The position numbers and the translations under genes were made by a program. Positions 242-16,697 of a stretch of 29,766 nt of DNA are shown here, one piece after another. How positions within the stretch are numbered: the first letter of the stretch is position 1; the number at the start of each line of letters is the position of its first letter. Under the pieces are notes generated by a model. It saw only the letters and a program-made list of their open reading frames with translations, ran no database searches and was not told where the DNA came from. The DNA comes from a virus: the IMG/VR virus record IMGVR_UViG_3300037963_002119, positions 1 to 29,766 of that record, one strand, 5' to 3'.

Positions 242-270
242 AGAGATGAGGGGTCGCCCCCTACATCTCT
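242..270 (-). terminator. Stem-loop at end of VWA gene
   Basis: AGAGATG (242-248) pairs with CATCTCT (264-270), and inside it GGGG (250-253) pairs with CCCC (257-260) around a TCG loop. The stop codon of the VWA gene (261-263) sits inside the structure. There is no long T-run on the minus strand, so a factor-dependent or RNA-stability role is possible. It is followed on the minus strand by palindrome copy 1. Confidence 0.5.
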
Positions 271-1514
271 ACTTTCACAAATTCCCCGAAGGGATCGATG
301 TCGCCACGCCTTGGGTCAACGCCGGTCGATGCCCACAAGACAGGGAAGTGCGTCTCGTCCTGCACTTTCTTGGACAAGCTGGCCTCGCCGTCCGTGAAGT
401 AAATAAAGGCGGCAGGGTCAATGCCCTCTTGCTGGCATAACTTGAACGGCGGCTCGAAACGTGTGCCGCCACCCGACTTGTTCTCGACTTCAATGTCGTT
501 GTAGTCGGTGAACTCGTCGTAGAGATCACCACCAGCGGTGCGCTGAATGTGAGTGTCACAATAAATCACCACAACCCGGTCGGGCTTGATGATGTCTCGC
601 AAACTATCAATCTCATCAGCGAAGCGCTGCGCTTCTTTAGACGAGACGCTGCCGCTGGTGTCGATGGCGAACACCAGATCACCGCCACCCACGCCTTCAG
701 TCGAGGGGAAGTAGTCACCGCCCCCAATGAAGCGACGGTTGGGGCGAGCGAGTGTCGGCTCTTCCCCAAACGCCTTAGACAGAAAGTCAGCGAGAGCTTC
801 CTTCCAGTCCACGGTTGCGGCCTTGGCCGCTTCCAGCACACCGTCGCTGATGTTGATGGTGCCAGAGCCGGTCACCTTCTCGACCTCAGAGGCGACGATA
901 ATATCCCGGCGGATTGCCTCGGTGGCCTCCTCCAAGGCGTCACCAGAGAGACGCTCGCCGTCCTCGTCGGTGGCGTCCCATATCTCCCCGGCGTGAGTGG
1001 GGTTCTCCGGTGCGCCAGATGGCTTGTCGTCGCCTTGCGGTGCAGGGGCTTGATCACCCTCGCCGCCCGACTGCTGGTCGCCCGACTGCTGGTCGTCCTC
1101 GTGATCACCCAGCATCTTGGCAATCTGCTTGGCAGACAGCCCCCGATACTTGGGATCGAACAAAGCCTGACTGGGCAATGGTAAGTTAGCATCCCACACG
1201 ATCAAGTTGATCGCGTAGTCACAAGCTTGGTTCCACAGGTCGGGATTGATGTCGCCCCGAAGAAGATGATGCATGAGGACAACGTGCAGCCCTTCATGTA
1301 GCACCACCGCCTCAAGCTCGGCGTCTGGGGTGCTTTGAACAAAGGCGCGGTTCCAGAACATGGAGGAACCATCTGTCGCCATTGTCTCGGTTGCCGTGGT
1401 CTCGACCAGCGGCAAGCCGAAAACGATGCTGGCATAGCCCGGTGCCTTGCTGCCAAGGCGGGAACGGGCGCGAACCAAGCGCCCATATTCCGGGTCAGTG
1501 ATTGACTTGTACAC
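261..1514 (-). CDS. CobT-like protein: HExxH metallopeptidase-like plus VWA domain
   Basis: The 417-aa protein has two recognisable parts. The N-terminal part carries HEGLH (residues 73-77) followed by VVLMHH, a zincin-type HExxH motif. A hydrophilic, Gln/Gly/Asp-rich linker (about 140-190) leads to a C-terminal von Willebrand A domain with a complete MIDAS: DTSGS (285-289), a threonine in GGGTRF (about 351) and an aspartate in YFTDGE (about 375). This is the architecture of VWA-like metallopeptidases related to cobaltochelatase CobT, which work with MoxR/CobS AAA+ ATPases. Such an ATPase is encoded two genes upstream. The longest frame starts at a GTG at 1523, but that GTG is part of the AGGAGGTGAC ribosome binding site, so I prefer the GTG at 1514, nine bases after it. 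The substrate is unknown. Real cobalt chelation is unlikely, since no CobN is seen. Confidence 0.85.
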   Translation of the reverse strand: MYKSITDPEYGRLVRARSRLGSKAPGYASIVFGLPLVETTATETMATDGSSMFWNRAFVQSTPDAELEAVVLHEGLHVVLMHHLLRGDINPDLWNQACDYAINLIVWDANLPLPSQALFDPKYRGLSAKQIAKMLGDHEDDQQSGDQQSGGEGDQAPAPQGDDKPSGAPENPTHAGEIWDATDEDGERLSGDALEEATEAIRRDIIVASEVEKVTGSGTINISDGVLEAAKAATVDWKEALADFLSKAFGEEPTLARPNRRFIGGGDYFPSTEGVGGGDLVFAIDTSGSVSSKEAQRFADEIDSLRDIIKPDRVVVIYCDTHIQRTAGGDLYDEFTDYNDIEVENKSGGGTRFEPPFKLCQQEGIDPAAFIYFTDGEASLSKKVQDETHFPVLWASTGVDPRRGDIDPFGEFVKVEM

Positions 1515-1526
1515 GGTAGTCACCTC

Positions 1527-2435
1527 CTAGTTAAAGATTGTAGTTAAGTTGTCGGCCAGCTTAGTGGCCTGAGCCGCAACATGCTGCCTGTCGGCAGCGT
1601 CCTCACGCAGTGAGGCAGCAGAGCGGTTGCCCAGCACATTGACGATGTCAGTCAATGCGGCGTCCACCCGTGCGTCACCGTCGATATTTAGCGCCCGTGC
1701 TACCGGCACAAGCTCCCGCACCTTGTCCACGGTGCTGTCCCGGAACGCGGTTGCCCGCTTGTTGTCCGGGTCATAAGTGGCAAGGCTATCCGCAAAGTGG
1801 CGGATGGTGTCGATGATTGCGGTGCGGGTGTGCTCCGCGACCTCGTTGAGCCGCTTGTTAGCGCGGCCTTCTACCTCACTTTTGAGAGCGGCGACGAACT
1901 CCGCACTCGCGGTGACGCGAATGTCGTTCGAGTCAGGGATCATGTCCAACTCTCTGCCCATCTCGTAATGGTTCTCGATGATTGCATCCGCGCTGTCGTA
2001 GTCCGCGTCTTTGAAGAGGTCGGGGTTCTCCTGCCGCGCCTGTTCGATAGCACCGGGCAGTATCTTGGCAAGATCATCTACCGCCTTCTCGAATTTAGAT
2101 TGGAACTCGCCAAGGTTGCGAAGAACCTTTTCGTTCAATGCATTCGGAAGAATGTGTCTTCCGTCGTTATCCCAAGCGGGAAGCCCCCCAGTGATGCGTT
2201 CACCGTCCAAGGCACCGTCAGTATTTCCCCGGAGATAGTTCCGGGCCGCGCCAAGAATTTTTGGGGGCAGCTTCAAGATGACTGGATCGACCAGCCGTTT
2301 GGAAAGGCTCACCCACTTGTCAGTGGTGTTGAAGTTTGCCGCCGCTGTCGCAGTGGCTTCCTTGTCCTTGATGATGCCGCGCCAAGTCTTGCCATACACT
2401 TTGATAAGCACGGCCTTTTCTGAAAGCTTAGTCAT
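1527..2435 (-). CDS. Helical protein between AAA+ ATPase and VWA protein
   Basis: A 302-aa protein, mostly charged and predicted helical, with a short PILKLPPKILGAARNYLRG segment near residue 55 and an alanine-rich C-terminal half. ATG at 2435 follows GAGGTGAG. The gene ends 12 nt before the preferred VWA start, and the VWA ribosome binding site overlaps its TAG stop, so the two are probably translationally coupled. Position and length match the unnamed middle protein often found between phage-encoded MoxR/CobS-like and CobT-like genes; that comparison is from memory. It may be an adaptor linking ATPase and VWA protein, but no motif proves this. Confidence 0.7.
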   Translation of the reverse strand: MTKLSEKAVLIKVYGKTWRGIIKDKEATATAAANFNTTDKWVSLSKRLVDPVILKLPPKILGAARNYLRGNTDGALDGERITGGLPAWDNDGRHILPNALNEKVLRNLGEFQSKFEKAVDDLAKILPGAIEQARQENPDLFKDADYDSADAIIENHYEMGRELDMIPDSNDIRVTASAEFVAALKSEVEGRANKRLNEVAEHTRTAIIDTIRHFADSLATYDPDNKRATAFRDSTVDKVRELVPVARALNIDGDARVDAALTDIVNVLGNRSAASLREDAADRQHVAAQATKLADNLTTIFN

Positions 2436-2456
2436 TTCTCACCTCATAAAGATTGT

Positions 2457-2474
2457 CAGGTTAATTTTAACCTG
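2457..2474. repeat. Palindrome family copy 2
   Basis: CAGGTTAATTTTAACCTG: 8-bp perfect arms around a TT centre. It lies 22 bp upstream of the start of the 302-aa gene (minus strand) and directly after the stem-loop at 2481-2494. Confidence 0.85.
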
Positions 2475-2480
2475 AAGAGA

Positions 2481-2494
2481 GGGGCCGAAGCCCC
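2481..2494 (-). terminator. GC-rich stem-loop after the AAA+ ATPase gene
   Basis: GGGGC (2481-2485), CGAA, GCCCC (2490-2494). Read on the minus strand this is GGGGC-TTCG-GCCCC followed by TCTCTT, a UUCG-tetraloop hairpin with a weak T-rich tail. It lies 4 bp after the ATPase stop, so it may terminate or attenuate transcription into the 302-aa/VWA pair. Confidence 0.55.
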
Positions 2495-2498
2495 CCGG

Positions 2499-3611
2499 TT
2501 AGGAACGAATGTCCGCCCAGCGTAGGGCGAAGTCACGATAGGTTGCCGTCTCGGCAACTAACGGCACCCGCCGCTTGATTGCCTCAACAACGAACACCCC
2601 GATCTCCGGGGACGACCACTCGCCACGTTCCATGAACGTGACGATGTTCGCGAAGTTGTCCGCGTTTGCCCTGCGTATTAGCAGAGATGCCGCCGCGAAC
2701 TGATGCCCCACCTCACACGGTATGAGGCAGGTATCAGGGGATACCAGAGCCTCGTCTATGTTGATGCCCCGTGCGGCGTGGCACAAAGCGAGGAAGGCGC
2801 GAGCGCACTCCTCACCAACGATACCGGAGTAGACTGGCGTCTCCAGCGCAGGAGATGGGGCCAGCTTGACCGCTTGGGACAGCTTGGCAAGCGTCCGTGG
2901 CGTTGCACCTGTTGGCGTGTCCGACTTCACAGTCGGGTCCAACTTGTACAGATACTCAGGCATCTGCTTGACAAATGCAGTCACCAACGGGTCCACCTCG
3001 GCACCCGCTGCCCAGTCCAGCCAGTCCCCAACGTCGGGGGCAAGCGTGAAGTGAACGAGGCGGGAGCCTGTCTGCGTCCCCATACCGTGCGAGTTGGCGC
3101 GGTCAGACTGGCGATTGCCAGCCAGCACCACCACCACCAATCCCCGCTTGCAGTCGGGGTCAGCTTTAGGGTGACCGGGCAGGACATAGTCGCCAATGCG
3201 GCCCTCGTCGAGCAACCGCTGCACGGCAGTCTGTTTCTCCCGCGCACCTTGCGGGAACTCGTCCAAGAACAGGACGCCGTACACCGGCTCGTCGGAGCCT
3301 ACACCCGGCCAGATGTCCGGGAGAGCGCGGCGCTGCACGCCATCCACAACTACGGGGAGACCCGCGAAGTCGAGGATGTCATAGTCGTTGATGCGCCGTT
3401 CAAAAAGAATTGGCCTGTCATATTTATCCCGATCAGGCCCCACACCAGCAGGGACGTTGCGATGGTTGGCGGCGGCGGCGAATATCTTGTCGATACCGCT
3501 TTGGATTATCTGAGACTTGCCCACACCGGGCGCACCCCAGATCATTGCGGGAGAATAGGGAACGGTGAGGCAAAGCGCCTCGACCAACTGCGAAGGTTTG
3601 ATGTAAGTCAT
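2499..3611 (-). CDS. MoxR/CobS-like AAA+ ATPase
   Basis: A 370-aa AAA+ protein. Walker A is GAPGVGKS (residues 26-33), Walker B is GVLFLDEF (about 112-119), sensor 1 lies in VVVLAGNRQ (about 160-168), and an arginine in SRLVHF (about 184) is a candidate finger. The LAGNRQSD and SRLVHFTL segments resemble MoxR/CobS-type ATPases, which remodel or insert metal into partner complexes together with VWA proteins. A VWA/HExxH protein is encoded two genes downstream. ATG at 3611 overlaps the stop of the preceding 166-aa gene (TAATG), and its ribosome binding site (GAGGTGAC) lies in that gene's last codons. It is probably cytoplasmic and hexameric. Confidence 0.88.
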   Translation of the reverse strand: MTYIKPSQLVEALCLTVPYSPAMIWGAPGVGKSQIIQSGIDKIFAAAANHRNVPAGVGPDRDKYDRPILFERRINDYDILDFAGLPVVVDGVQRRALPDIWPGVGSDEPVYGVLFLDEFPQGAREKQTAVQRLLDEGRIGDYVLPGHPKADPDCKRGLVVVVLAGNRQSDRANSHGMGTQTGSRLVHFTLAPDVGDWLDWAAGAEVDPLVTAFVKQMPEYLYKLDPTVKSDTPTGATPRTLAKLSQAVKLAPSPALETPVYSGIVGEECARAFLALCHAARGINIDEALVSPDTCLIPCEVGHQFAAASLLIRRANADNFANIVTFMERGEWSSPEIGVFVVEAIKRRVPLVAETATYRDFALRWADIRS

Positions 3612-4111
3612 TAGTCAGTCACCTCATAGCTTGGGTTGATTGCGCCGATAGAACGCTTGTAAGCGTCCAACCAGCATATGTCTGCGGTGTACACAGGAAC
3701 GGCAGAATTGTCTGCCTTAACGAAGCTCCGATGTTTGTAGGGGTTATATTTAACCCCAACATAATTTGATGGGTTTGACAGAAACTCTGCCCGCTCGTCG
3801 CTCATGTCCCAGAAGCGTGGATTTAATGCGAAATTACGACCTACTGGAAACGGTCGCACCACACCAACGATCCCGGCGTGAACGTTCTTCCGTTTCTCAC
3901 GTAGGACGCGGCGGCGTCCTGCTTCGCTGACTTTGAAGATACAGTTTTCCATGTATACCATATCTGCATGAGCGACCACCCGGCCCTTGCTGGGGCCTTC
4001 GAGCGCCTTAACGCTGAAGCATTTCTTGTGCAGGTTGAAATAAACGAAGCACTTCAATCCAAGTGCGTCTCTTAGATCGTCTAAAAAAAACTGCATTCCA
4101 TTTTTAGTCAT
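3611..4111 (-). CDS. Hypothetical 166-aa protein, first gene of the ATPase operon
   Basis: Starts MTKNGMQFFLDDLRDALG. A GTG six bases further upstream belongs to the GAGGTGAC ribosome binding site, so the ATG at 4111 is preferred. The middle holds a basic segment (GRRRVLREKRKNVHAG, near residue 75) and the C-terminal part is aromatic-rich. No catalytic motif is visible. The stop overlaps the ATPase ATG by one base, so it is probably co-translated with the ATPase. I recall similar VHAGIVG-containing phage proteins without a function. A palindrome copy lies just upstream. Confidence 0.7.
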   Translation of the reverse strand: MTKNGMQFFLDDLRDALGLKCFVYFNLHKKCFSVKALEGPSKGRVVAHADMVYMENCIFKVSEAGRRRVLREKRKNVHAGIVGVVRPFPVGRNFALNPRFWDMSDERAEFLSNPSNYVGVKYNPYKHRSFVKADNSAVPVYTADICWLDAYKRSIGAINPSYEVTD

Positions 4112-4121
4112 AGTCACCTCT

Positions 4122-4139
4122 CAGGTTAAGATTAACTCA
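4122..4139. repeat. Palindrome family copy 3
   Basis: CAGGTTAAGATTAACTCA. Left arm intact; right arm diverges after TTAAC. It lies upstream of the 166-aa gene and beside the stem-loop at 4150-4172. Confidence 0.7.
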
Positions 4140-4821: not shown

Positions 4822-4839
4822 CAGGTTAAAATTAACCCG
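4822..4839. repeat. Palindrome family copy 4
   Basis: CAGGTTAAAATTAACCCG. It lies 13 bp upstream of the 108-aa gene (minus strand). Its outer end is shared with the stem-loop at 4836-4854. Confidence 0.8.
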
Positions 4840-5150: not shown

Positions 5151-5314
5151 CAGATTCCTCCCTTGTGTTTGGGGTGGCGGCGGAAAGACCCGCGTCCCTT
5201 GCGGGGCGCGACTTTCTTTTGCTGGAACTGCCCGCCCTGTAGCGCTGAGGCTACAGGCGAGCGATGCTTAAGCGCATTGAACCGGCGCTCTTCGGCTTTG
5301 CTAACGAACTTCAT
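5150..5314 (-). CDS. 54-aa Arg/Lys-rich basic protein
   Basis: A short gene filling the gap between two others. Its ATG at 5314 overlaps the stop of the cysteine-peptidase-like gene (ATGA), and its TGA overlaps the next ATG. Protein begins MKFVSKAEERRFNALKHRSP; the C-terminal third (RKGRGSFRRHPKHKGG) is strongly basic, consistent with nucleic-acid binding. Perfect packing on both sides and a GGAAGGTGAC site upstream support it. Function unknown. Confidence 0.6.
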   Translation of the reverse strand: MKFVSKAEERRFNALKHRSPVASALQGGQFQQKKVAPRKGRGSFRRHPKHKGGI

Positions 5315-5847
5315 GACAATGTCACCTTCCCGTTTTTGATTACGAGTTGAACCTTGCCGCTCCTCTTGGGCGCGGCCTTGCGAGCCTTGCGGTCCACTGT
5401 GACCACAAGGAATATTTTCTTGCGGCGTCCCCAGTATTCCGCCGGGGTATCGCCCTCTGGCTTAGTGCTTTGATCGAAGACCAGCCCATCGACGTAGGCC
5501 TGTGCGTGGCCCCCGGTGATGAGCATGTAAGCGCCGCCCTTTGGAAGGTCGCGCACTGCATTCCTGAGAGTGCAGCGCTTGACCCGCTCGTTGAGGTCGG
5601 CGTCGATGCGAGGGTTGAGACCGGCATGGTCGAGCGCCTTGAATAGGTCGCCGCTCTCCGGTCTCAACCATGTGCTGCCGAAGCGCGGGTTCTTCGTCCC
5701 GCCCTTCCACTTGGGGCCGTACCCGCACAGCTTGCGGATGTTGTCCATTGACTTGTGCAAGCTGATGCCAGCGAGCACCGCAACGGCGGTCGGGCCGCAT
5801 ATCGGGGCGCCGCTGTCCACGCCCTGTGGTTGCTTATATTCAGTCAT
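5311..5847 (-). CDS. Possible papain/C39-like cysteine peptidase fold protein
   Basis: A 178-aa protein. GAPICGPTAVAVLAG places Cys17 at the start of a helix, as in papain-like/C39 peptidases (C-G-P-T-A pattern). GGHAQAYVDGLVFDQ gives His114 with Asp120 or Asp125 as the third residue, the order Cys-His-Asp of that fold. A basic tail (about 150-178) follows. In C39 and NlpC-like proteins this triad cleaves peptides or amide bonds. The catalytic role here is inferred from residue order only, and the protein could be an inactive homologue. ATG at 5847 follows GAGGTGAC. The gene starts a tight operon with the 54-aa and 72-aa genes. Confidence 0.6.
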   Translation of the reverse strand: MTEYKQPQGVDSGAPICGPTAVAVLAGISLHKSMDNIRKLCGYGPKWKGGTKNPRFGSTWLRPESGDLFKALDHAGLNPRIDADLNERVKRCTLRNAVRDLPKGGAYMLITGGHAQAYVDGLVFDQSTKPEGDTPAEYWGRRKKIFLVVTVDRKARKAAPKRSGKVQLVIKNGKVTLS

Positions 5848-5859
5848 GAGTCACCTCGT

Positions 5860-5877
5860 TAGGTTAATTTTAACTTG
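5860..5877. repeat. Palindrome family copy 5
   Basis: TAGGTTAATTTTAACTTG. It lies 12 bp upstream of the cysteine-peptidase-like gene (minus strand), beside the stem-loop at 5887-5909. Confidence 0.75.
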
Positions 5878-7375: not shown

Positions 7376-7393
7376 TGGGTTACTTTTAACCTG
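7376..7393. repeat. Palindrome family copy 6
   Basis: TGGGTTACTTTTAACCTG, one arm mismatch (TTAC). It lies 13 bp upstream of the micro-ORF at 7406 and exactly 100 bp from copy 7. Confidence 0.75.
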
Positions 7394-7405: not shown

Positions 7406-7483
7406 ATGAGCGACGGCGACAAAAATAATTCGGATGACGAGACGCCTGAATTAACACTTCCAGCGCTTGATTCGTGGGGTTAA
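7406..7483 (+). CDS. 25-aa micro-ORF resembling the start of the small terminase
   Basis: ATG at 7406, TAA at 7481-7483. The peptide contains DKNNSDDETPELTL, which matches DKNQGDDAPKLTL at the N-terminus of the small terminase 150 bp downstream. It therefore looks like a partial duplication or a remnant of the terminase start, or an unrelated acidic leader peptide. No good ribosome binding site is seen. The stop codon lies within palindrome copy 7 (final codons GGT TAA), the same arrangement as at the ends of the small terminase and portal genes. Confidence 0.35.
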   Translation: MSDGDKNNSDDETPELTLPALDSWG

Positions 7484-7493
7484 GATTAACCTG
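7476..7493. repeat. Palindrome family copy 7
   Basis: GGGGTTAAGATTAACCTG. It includes the stop codon of the micro-ORF. The following 140 bp to the small terminase hold two short hairpins (CCCAT-TTT-ATGGG, 7528-7540; CCCCTC-A-GAGGGG, 7565-7577) and no other gene. Confidence 0.78.
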
Positions 7494-7633: not shown

Positions 7634-8158
7634 ATGGAAGACGACAAGAATCAAGGCGACGATGCGCCAAAGCTTACACTGGTCGAGGGCGGCAAGGACG
7701 CGGACGGTGAGAAGCCGAGACCTGCGAAGCGCAAGTTAACGGCAAAGCAAGAGCGATTCCTTGCGGGACTGATAAGAGGCGAGAGCCAATACGACGCCTA
7801 TTGCAACGCATACAATGCCAAGGGCATGAAGCGCAGCGCAATCGACACTGAGGCGTGGCGACTTGCAGCGCACCCGGAGATCGCTCGGAGACTGCATGCC
7901 CATCAGGCGTCTATTGAGCGCGCTGCGTCCGCCTCTGCGCTCTCCCGGCGGCGGCTCGTTCTGGAGCGACTGGAGCATGAAGCGGTGAACGCGGAGAGTG
8001 ACAGCGCTCGCGTCCGGGCGCTGGAGTTGCTCGGCAAGACCCATGATGTGGGTCTGTTCGTAGAGCGCATCGAAACCGACAGCGGTGACCGCTCGCCTGA
8101 CGAACTGCGTCGCGAATTGCAGGACAAGCTGACATCGTTGCTGGGTCGCTCGGGTTAA
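7634..8158 (+). CDS. terS: Terminase small subunit
   Basis: A 174-aa protein. After an acidic N-terminus comes KLTAKQERFLAGLIRGESQY (from about residue 36), the hallmark DNA-binding start of the Terminase_2 family, followed by a helical region (AIDTEAWRLAAHPEIARRLH) and a long charged C-terminal helix. The small terminase recognises the phage packaging site and loads the large terminase, which is encoded further along the same strand but separated by an accessory block, an unusual split. The ribosome binding site is weak (AGAGGTCGAG). The final codons GGT TAA lie inside palindrome copy 8. Base composition is GC-rich like the minus arm. Confidence 0.85.
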   Translation: MEDDKNQGDDAPKLTLVEGGKDADGEKPRPAKRKLTAKQERFLAGLIRGESQYDAYCNAYNAKGMKRSAIDTEAWRLAAHPEIARRLHAHQASIERAASASALSRRRLVLERLEHEAVNAESDSARVRALELLGKTHDVGLFVERIETDSGDRSPDELRRELQDKLTSLLGRSG

Positions 8159-9263: not shown

Positions 9264-9487
9264 AGTGGATTATCGTTGTTATCATGACCTCTGTATCTCC
9301 TGATGGCTATGACGCGGTTCAGATAGACAACAGATATGATCAGCCTCTTTTATTTGAGACGAAAGAAGCCTGTATGGATCACGTAAAAGAAAACTATATC
9401 CCCATAACTCTTTTTGCCCACAAAACATTCGACGGTGAATCAGGAGTTCAGGATATTCACTGCGTACCTCAATTGGTGGAACTATGA
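9260..9487 (+). CDS. Hypothetical 75-aa protein
   Basis: Starts MKWIIVVIMTSVSPDGYDAV, overlapping the stop of the 50-aa gene; AGAGGGCAGGG lies just upstream. A pattern of LLFETKEACMDHVKEN then an Ile-His-Cys near the end recalls small phage proteins with two conserved cysteines. The hydrophobic N-terminus is too short for a sure membrane segment. Its TGA overlaps the next ATG. Function unknown. Confidence 0.65.
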   Translation: MKWIIVVIMTSVSPDGYDAVQIDNRYDQPLLFETKEACMDHVKENYIPITLFAHKTFDGESGVQDIHCVPQLVEL

Positions 9488-9984
9488 ACTTCCACAAAAT
9501 TCAACTGAAGAAAGACTTATCTAAAACCACCACGTTTTTTGTGTTTGCTGCCTCATGCAGGGACGCTTTGGTGTATCTGGCATCCCCCTTCAAATCAGAA
9601 AAGCCCTTCCAGCCTCATACGGGCGTCTCTGAGGACGTTTGGAGAGAAAGAGCTAGGCAGGTAACCATTACGACTGAATGGCTACTCAACAAGGGAATAT
9701 GGGCCTTCTCGCCTATAGTCTACGGAATGCAAGTTGATGAAACGTGTGGCAGTCATGATTCAGCTTGGTGGTTGAGAAGGGATTTCGAGTTTTTTAAGAA
9801 GTGCGATGTGTTTGCAATTCTTGCTTTGGATGGTTGGCAGGATAGCCCCGGCGTCGAAAAAGAAACGGAATGGGCGCTCACGATGGGTAAGCCAATATTT
9901 ATTTTGGAATTGGAGGATGACTGGTTTGACGAAGAGACAACGGCAGGTGCTGGATTTCGTAGAGAAATTCTGGGAGATGCATAG
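9484..9984 (+). CDS. DUF1937-type, nucleoside deoxyribosyltransferase-like protein
   Basis: A 166-aa protein with LVYLASPF (about residues 29-36), an Arg-containing helix (WRERARQVTITTEWLLNKG), AFSPIVYG (about 74-81) and DGWQDSPGVEKETEWA (about 116-131). These are the core motifs of DUF1937, whose fold is close to nucleoside 2-deoxyribosyltransferase; the SxGxExE segment supplies the candidate catalytic glutamate. It might modify or salvage nucleotides, or act on NAD-like substrates; the true substrate is unknown. The first 28 residues precede the conserved domain. It is in an overlapping run with the 75-aa and winged-helix genes. Confidence 0.72.
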   Translation: MNFHKIQLKKDLSKTTTFFVFAASCRDALVYLASPFKSEKPFQPHTGVSEDVWRERARQVTITTEWLLNKGIWAFSPIVYGMQVDETCGSHDSAWWLRRDFEFFKKCDVFAILALDGWQDSPGVEKETEWALTMGKPIFILELEDDWFDEETTAGAGFRREILGDA

Positions 9985-16123: not shown

Positions 16124-16330
16124 GTGCCTATAACGGAAAACGTCTATGAGGTATTCCAAAAGAACCTCAGGACGTACATGAATGAGAAGGCTGACTTCTT
16201 GGCTACTGGTGGTGCGAGTAGCTTTGAAGAGTATAACAAGGCTGTTGGAGTAATTCAGGGCCTTGCATTGGCCGAAAGAGAGCTTATCGATCTCTTTGAG
16301 GCTTTGCGTAAAGGAGAAGAGGATGACTGA
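16124..16330 (+). CDS. Hypothetical 68-aa helical protein after portal
   Basis: GTG start with GAAGGTGA upstream. Residues form two amphipathic helices (VYEVFQKNLRTYMNEKADFL and NKAVGVIQGLALAERELIDL) joined by an ATGGASSFEEY turn. Similar small proteins follow the portal gene in other marine phages (from memory), without known function. The end overlaps the GroES-like start by 8 bases. Confidence 0.7.
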   Translation: MPITENVYEVFQKNLRTYMNEKADFLATGGASSFEEYNKAVGVIQGLALAERELIDLFEALRKGEEDD

Positions 16331-16697
16331 AGAAAATGTTATCCCATTGGATGATGCTAGGAAGGCAAAGGCTCTTCCTGATCCAGTGGGCTATAAATTG
16401 CTAATAGCAATTCCCCCAAAAGAAGAGAAAACAGAAGGTGGCATCTTGCTGCCAGAAGATACTCGTCGCAGAGAGGAAGCGGCTAGTATTACGGGAATGA
16501 TTTTAAAAATTGGGCCTGATGCTTACACAGATCAGGAGCGGTTCCCCGGCGGCGCTTGGTGTAAAGAGGGAGACTGGATTGTTATGCGATCTTATACTGG
16601 CACTAGAATAGAGGTGCATGGTCAAGAGTTTCGCATCATCAATGATGATTCCGTAGAGGCAATAGTGGAAGACCCACGGGGGATTAAAAGGGTATGA
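16323..16697 (+). CDS. Phage-encoded GroES-like co-chaperonin
   Basis: A 124-aa Cpn10-family protein starting MTEENVIPLDDARKAKALPD. It has PVGYKLLIAIPP, the mobile-loop-type segment EKTEGGILLPED, then GMILKIGPDAYTD, WCKEGDWIVMRSYTG and EFRIINDDSVEAIV, in the order of the GroES fold. In phage T4, Gp31 replaces host GroES so that the coat protein can fold in GroEL. A matching role for the coat protein encoded 2 kb downstream is a fair inference. The frame extends upstream, but the ATG at 16323 has AAAGGAG at good distance. The stop overlaps the scaffold ATG. Confidence 0.88.
   Translation: MTEENVIPLDDARKAKALPDPVGYKLLIAIPPKEEKTEGGILLPEDTRRREEAASITGMILKIGPDAYTDQERFPGGAWCKEGDWIVMRSYTGTRIEVHGQEFRIINDDSVEAIVEDPRGIKRV

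Follow-up and report, generated by a model that had tools for sequence, protein, structure and literature searches.

In MoxR-VWA pairs, a VWA partner docks into the hexamer of an AAA+ ATPase, and the motor strains a linker of this partner so as to act on a client. A described case is NorQ-NorD: NorD, the VWA partner, inserts into the hexamer of NorQ, and its linker is twisted by the motor (PMC13036017), the client being cytochrome c nitric oxide reductase (cNOR; PMC13036017; PMC9976466). ATPase-VWA pairs are already known from viruses, namely, as gp24/gp25 of Escherichia phage N4, from jumbo phages and from reports on viral cobST. In group 2.2 jumbo phages, the MoxR and metallopeptidase-vWA proteins have been proposed to form a chaperone-cochaperone pair for virion assembly with proteolytic processing (PMC7824862), whereas in a comparison of N4-like phages, gp24 and gp25 were found among 14 core genes, with no known function, and on middle transcripts (PMC4193335). 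Here we analyse a cassette related to these pairs in a linear virus fragment of 29,766 nt (IMG/VR record IMGVR_UViG_3300037963_002119; hereafter, the window), which encodes a MoxR-like ATPase, a helical protein probably of the DUF3150 family and an HExxH-VWA protein. The window is one more instance, with the full set intact, of a trio that appears not to have been recognised before as a module common to phages and plasmids in the open-access (not subscription) literature that we searched, where DUF3150 is not mentioned at all. Judging from its distribution, the trio probably acts within the infected cell rather than in the building of virus particles or the synthesis of vitamin B12.

Composition of the cassette

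The core of the cassette occupies positions 261-3611 of the window on the minus strand and consists of three intact open reading frames (ORFs). Together with a preceding gene for a 166-aa protein, the order on this strand is 166-aa gene (4111-3611), ATPase (3611-2499), helical protein (2435-1527) and HExxH-VWA protein (1523 or, more likely, 1514-261). All four ORFs listed in the first-pass annotation are thus present and intact, and the key motifs that it named (Walker A and B, HExxH, MIDAS) are confirmed, with the respective residues conserved in the alignments. The description of the ATPase and the VWA protein as a functional-looking pair is upheld by the conservation of the ATPase, HExxH and MIDAS residues, as far as can be judged from sequence.

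The ATPase (370 aa) matches PHROG 1297 (9e-53) and displays conserved Walker A (GAPGVGKS) and Walker B (LFLDE) motifs, sensor 1 (N166), an arginine (R184) and the sensor-2 residues P238-R239. When its profile was compared to the PDB sequences, the best match was to Midasin; Clp/VCP-type ATPases came next, and the MoxR proteins NorQ and CbbQ were also matched. Both the AAA+ core residues and a linked MIDAS-bearing VWA protein, which are characteristic of MoxR-class AAA+ ATPases with a VWA partner, were found.

The HExxH-VWA protein is of the DUF2201 type. Its ORF opens at GTG 1523 (420 aa), but this codon falls within the ribosome-binding site AGGAGGTG, so that GTG 1514, where relatives align a Met, is the likelier start; the product is then 417 aa long, and the gene starts 12 nt after the stop of the helical protein gene. 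Residue numbers given below refer to the 420-aa frame. The protein consists of an N-terminal HExxHxxxxH metallopeptidase-like domain, an acidic low-complexity linker (residues ~141-178) and a C-terminal VWA domain with an intact MIDAS. Both Pfam domains are recognised well above their gathering scores, DUF2201_N at 1.5e-32 (113.8 bits versus 23.2) and DUF2201 (VWA) at 2.7e-15 (57 bits versus 26.4). The peptidase motif reads H76-E77-x-x-H80-x4-H85, and in the alignment of 61 proteins, H76, H80, H85, N98, A100, D102 and the MIDAS residues D288, S290, S292, T354 and D378 are invariant, and E77 is nearly so. Across 92 distinct VWA proteins, HExxHx4H is kept in 90 and DxSxS in 91. In the AlphaFold2 model (mean pLDDT 84), the VWA domain is confident and the acidic linker is of low confidence; a fold search with the VWA part retrieved VWA/I-domains at Z scores of 12-14. 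The HExxH region shows weak sequence similarity to M48/BepA (E 0.014-0.2), and the domain can be described as zinc-peptidase-like, with predicted activity.

The PHROG to which this protein belongs (1314) is named 'HNH endonuclease', and many RefSeq phage records label DUF2201 HExxH-VWA proteins in the same way, including N4 gp25 (NC_008720) and those of PA5oct, phage G and others. Pfam finds only DUF2201_N, DUF2201 and VWA_2 in the window protein and no HNH domain; accordingly, the name has apparently been passed on in error from record to record.

The middle gene encodes a protein of 302 aa. The window protein itself matches the Pfam profile of DUF3150 (PF11348) weakly (E 0.038; 13.7 bits versus a cut-off of 24.9), but the same profile is matched at E ≤ 1e-3 by 12 of its 43 aligned relatives (best 8e-7; one relative scoring 25.2 bits), and the window protein matches a 'DUF3150 domain-containing protein' of phage MinM2 at 4e-6. 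Its probable membership in the family is thus transitive, by way of the relatives that match the profile. The AlphaFold2 model is mostly helical (mean pLDDT 93), and a fold search with it retrieved no PDB match above background, which is not evidence of a new fold. What had been annotated as a helical linker is therefore indeed a helical protein of the cassette, but is better described as a probable DUF3150-family protein, the third component of a module that recurs elsewhere.

Distribution of the trio among phages and plasmids

To the extent that gene content can be read from sequence, the core of the cassette is a three-gene module found in hundreds of phages, in which the ATPase and VWA genes are linked almost without exception and the third gene is frequent. 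Upstream sequence of 4.5 kb or more was available for 68 viral VWA loci. In 67 of these, the ATPase gene is encoded on the same strand, no more than 6 kb away, and DUF3150 is present as well in 37, in the order ATPase-DUF3150-VWA in 34; these fractions describe relatives of the window and are biased, because the sample consists mostly of the best-scoring of at least 579 confirmed viral hits. In a tree of 116 VWA proteins, the presence of DUF3150 requires 8 changes compared to 36.9 with shuffled labels; it is thus inherited with the lineage. Close relatives of the window and members of the L007-L014 clade encode the trio on the strand opposite to the terminase and portal genes. A separate ATPase-VWA clade without DUF3150 is found in bacterial contigs (L147-L151, from Marinobacter, a Rhodopirellula metagenome-assembled genome and Vreelandella); one of its pairs, L148, adjoins genes for SspA, SspB and NERD-UvrD, the last of which is recognised by models of defence proteins.

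Among the closest known counterparts is the core pair of the Schitoviridae, as represented by N4 gp24/gp25, which consists of a homologous AAA+ ATPase and an HExxH-VWA (DUF2201) protein, encoded in the same order and on the same strand, and gp25 retains both HExxH and MIDAS. In contrast to the window, no DUF3150 gene was detected in N4, the pair is followed by nucleotide-metabolism and replication genes, and sequence identity is low. The pair of group 2.2 jumbo phages shares with the window the two-protein architecture, including the N-terminal metallopeptidase, which had already been recognised; however, in the accessible part of that report, it is described without DUF3150, assigned to virion assembly and not linked to plasmid copies (PMC7824862). 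A third component is also present in the MoxR-vWA ternary conflict systems (VMAP, iSTAND, FtsH; PMC7159879), but in the window, this component is DUF3150, and there is no effector domain C-terminal to the VWA protein.

The module is not confined to viruses. Plasmid records were matched by the VWA protein (51), the DUF3150 protein (42) and the ATPase (70), and ~40 plasmids, mostly from Burkholderiales, carry all three genes in the order seen in the window. In all 30 plasmids in which the two genes could be paired among the matches listed, DUF3150 is located directly 5' of the VWA gene, with a gap of 21-140 nt and the ATPase gene upstream; annotated examples read as ATP-binding protein, hypothetical protein (DUF3150) and VWA-like protein. 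The phage profiles cover most of each of the three proteins of the Burkholderiales plasmids, and the plasmid copies are nested among the phage copies in the VWA tree; the differences from the window are the plasmid context and a VWA protein that is ~28-35% identical to that of the window. Upstream of the trio, pBMC401 and the C. taiwanensis plasmid carry PRTRC genes, and in pBMC401 a type IV secretion cluster is found downstream; in the Rhodovastum and Variovorax plasmids, no PRTRC genes accompany the trio within the stretch shown.

A divergent version is encoded by plasmid pCAR1 (ORF101-103), in which an AAA protein with a CbbQ_C domain is followed by a DUF3150 protein (8e-92) and a NorD-like protein of 604 aa with HECSH and DKSGS motifs. 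The gene order, the strong DUF3150 match of the middle gene and the combination of HExxH and MIDAS are as in the window. Unlike in the window, the ATPase has the CbbQ_C domain and the VWA protein shows no detectable homology outside the motifs, the 604-aa protein being not alignable to DUF2201 by the VWA profile built here. ORF100-103 of pCAR1 are conserved in R478, Rts1, SXT and R391 (PMC2642839). In SXT, deletion of bet, exo, s067, s068 and s070 lowers transfer by at most 10-fold (PMC2791158); these genes may or may not include members of the trio.

Possible function of the trio

Tentatively, and with chances that we would put at slightly below even, we favour the view that the cassette is a three-component intracellular remodelling or processing machine used by phages and plasmids, with NorQ-NorD-like mechanics. 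The analogy rests on matching parts, because the window proteins include the motor, the MIDAS domain, the flexible linker and a metal-site domain. As in NorQ-NorD, a MoxR-class AAA+ motor is combined with a VWA partner; unlike there, a DUF3150 protein is present, no such partner being described in the accessible parts of the reports on NorQ-NorD, and the client, cNOR, has no counterpart here (PMC13036017; PMC9976466). Under this model, the ATPase (2499-3611) would assemble into a ring and supply the ATP-driven force, and the DUF2201 protein (261-1514) would dock on this ring via its MIDAS-bearing VWA domain, so that the zinc-peptidase-like domain, on its flexible acidic linker, could be presented to the client. 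The DUF3150 protein (1527-2435) might serve as a dedicated adaptor or scaffold. The putative client would be an intracellular complex encountered by autonomously replicating mobile elements, during replication, host takeover or establishment, and might be unfolded, processed or altered at a metal site. Since the same machine is found on plasmids, a virion protein is an improbable client. A more specific proposal, that lytic phages and conjugative plasmids share and exchange a single, hitherto undescribed three-component class, which remodels or cleaves a host, non-virion target that both types of element must overcome or exploit when they enter, seems possible but somewhat less probable than the general one. 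Be that as it may, the DUF3150 component and the plasmid-borne trio make virion assembly and cobalamin less central to the question, and bear on a core pair of N4-like phages that lacks a known function and could be tested in N4 with E. coli.

Two narrower forms of the intracellular machine can be envisaged, each of which we regard as unlikely when taken by itself. The first is an accessory role in replication or recombination, whereby the phage or plasmid replisome or a recombinase complex would be remodelled. In line with this possibility, primase-helicase is the commonest known family among the neighbours of the module (13 of 135 proteins from 25 loci), the Schitoviridae pairs lie near helicase, polymerase, dCTP deaminase or thymidylate synthase genes, a toprim/DUF3991 gene adjoins the trio of the Rhodovastum plasmid, and the pCAR1 region also holds ssb/recT. 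However, such neighbourhood evidence is suggestive, and there is no adjacent replication gene in the stretch shown of the two PRTRC plasmids examined. The second form is anti-defence or host takeover, in which the machine would dismantle or inactivate a host complex, for example, one for defence, that threatens incoming DNA. This would fit the occurrence of the trio in phages and conjugative plasmids, both of which arrive in the cell as foreign DNA, the position of the L148 pair beside defence genes in the separate clade, and the recurrence of MoxR-vWA ternary systems among conflict systems (PMC7159879). Nevertheless, PADLOC defence models yielded no match for the window ATPase or VWA protein and only a weak one for the DUF3150 protein, to the candidate PDC-M07B (E 0.0014), and the strong conservation of the pair, as part of the 14-gene N4-like core (PMC4193335), is unlike that of fast-changing anti-defence genes.

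Several observations weigh against a common intracellular machine in phages and plasmids. Clients could differ between the two types of element. In the Schitoviridae examined, the DUF3150 gene is not detectable, and the frequency of the third gene elsewhere comes from the biased sample described above. The catalytic Glu of HExxH is replaced, with the His residues retained, in Littlefix (L031; HLAMH) and in L081 (HSVMH), that is, in 2 of the 92 proteins; therefore, peptidase activity is not universal. This loss was also considered as a trait of the Schitoviridae, which was rejected since N4 and most others retain HExxH. Finally, homologues of gp24/gp25 in roseophage RPP1 are located near virion-protein genes of the second structural module (PMC4193335), and the record of the ATPase from jumbo phage PA5oct carries an 'ESI-MS/MS' note, which may mean detection in virions.

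The last two observations would be expected if the pair were a virion assembly chaperone that folds or assembles virion proteins, with the metallopeptidase domain processing structural proteins. This role has been published for the same architecture (PMC7824862), and a MoxR/VWA pair of Acidianus two-tailed virus works in tail development, as cited in two reports (PMC7824862; PMC7911831); terminase genes are also close neighbours of the module, with small terminase represented by 10 of the neighbouring proteins mentioned above. However, the same trio is carried by ~40 plasmids, which make no virions, the module lies on the strand opposite to the terminase and portal genes, outside the head-tail operon, and the N4 gp24/gp25 transcripts are middle rather than late (PMC4193335). 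Taken together, these points make virion assembly an improbable function, and among the roles listed in the first-pass annotation, virion maturation is weakened by the plasmid-borne copies and the gene position.

Although the AAA+ and VWA/MIDAS domain pair is the same, similar pairs are commonly labelled cobS/cobT, and the inference has been published for viral cobST clusters (PMC8651126; PMC11288001), it is very improbable that the proteins are CobST-type cobaltochelatase subunits that borrow the host CobN to raise cobalamin supply, given that there is no CobS/CobT match in NCBIfam (E ≤ 10) or Pfam, that none of 51 records has a CobN match over the cut-off (named phage records searched whole account for 19; the controls scored, the record of the window is a fragment, and the host genome is outside the search), and that the B12-dependent reductase NrdJ exceeds its cut-off in 1 of 34. 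The doubt about cobalt chelation voiced in the earlier annotation is thereby borne out.

The 166-aa gene, repeated palindromes and the surrounding gene block

The 166-aa protein (3611-4111, minus strand) belongs to the Phage_L5_gp82 family (Pfam PF25735, 2e-34). The stop codon of its gene overlaps the ATPase start as TAATG, indicating translational coupling in the window. Thus, the proposed coupling is real, but a conserved four-gene set can be rejected, since, of 26 related records, a single one has the 166-aa gene, which is absent from the other 25, several of them fragments; upstream of the ATPase in the relatives, it is present only in L018. The co-occurrence of the four genes in other phages is accordingly poor, and the 166-aa gene is outside the conserved module.

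A palindrome family, GGTTAANNTTAACC, is represented in the window by 12 copies at up to 2 mismatches, compared to 1.07 expected. One copy, GGTTAATTTTAACC (2459-2472), is located 24 nt upstream of the start of the DUF3150 gene; GGTTAAGATTAACT (4124-4137) lies upstream of the 166-aa gene and ATPase, and GGTTAATTTTAACT (225-238) is downstream of the VWA gene and upstream of the next minus-strand ORF. Further copies are at 4824-4837, 5862-5875, 7378-7391 and 7478-7491, and also at 8153, 16098, 22138 and 25525. Five copies sit 13-24 nt upstream of minus-strand gene starts. The palindrome is enriched in the close relatives L001, L003, L018, L021 and L023, where it also precedes cassette genes; the L010 clade shows no such enrichment. 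Possibly, it is an operator or a phage promoter element.

The cassette is part of a leftward gene block on the minus strand, whereas the packaging and head genes are on the plus strand from 7.6 kb onwards, encoding the small and large terminases, portal, a GroES-like protein and the major head protein. The GC content is ~57% to the left of a step at ~8-8.2 kb, between the terS gene and the remaining structural module, and 43-49% to the right. An assembly chimera at this step (~8 kb) was considered and rejected, because the portal-terL-terS-ATPase order is repeated in independent contigs from other samples (L018-L023); the recurrence of the gene order across the step indicates that it is a real mosaic boundary.

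Three other genes of the window deserve mention. A minus-strand gene (5311-5847) encodes a 178-aa protein without a strong family match, which contains a GAPICGPTAVAVLAG stretch resembling cysteine-peptidase motifs and is kept in the relatives L001, L018 and L021. On the plus strand, the product of 9484-9984 resembles nucleoside 2-deoxyribosyltransferases (PHROG 355, 4.5e-14) and might function in nucleotide metabolism, and a phage-encoded GroES-like co-chaperonin (16263-16694; PHROG 3188, 1e-16) is encoded downstream of the portal gene.

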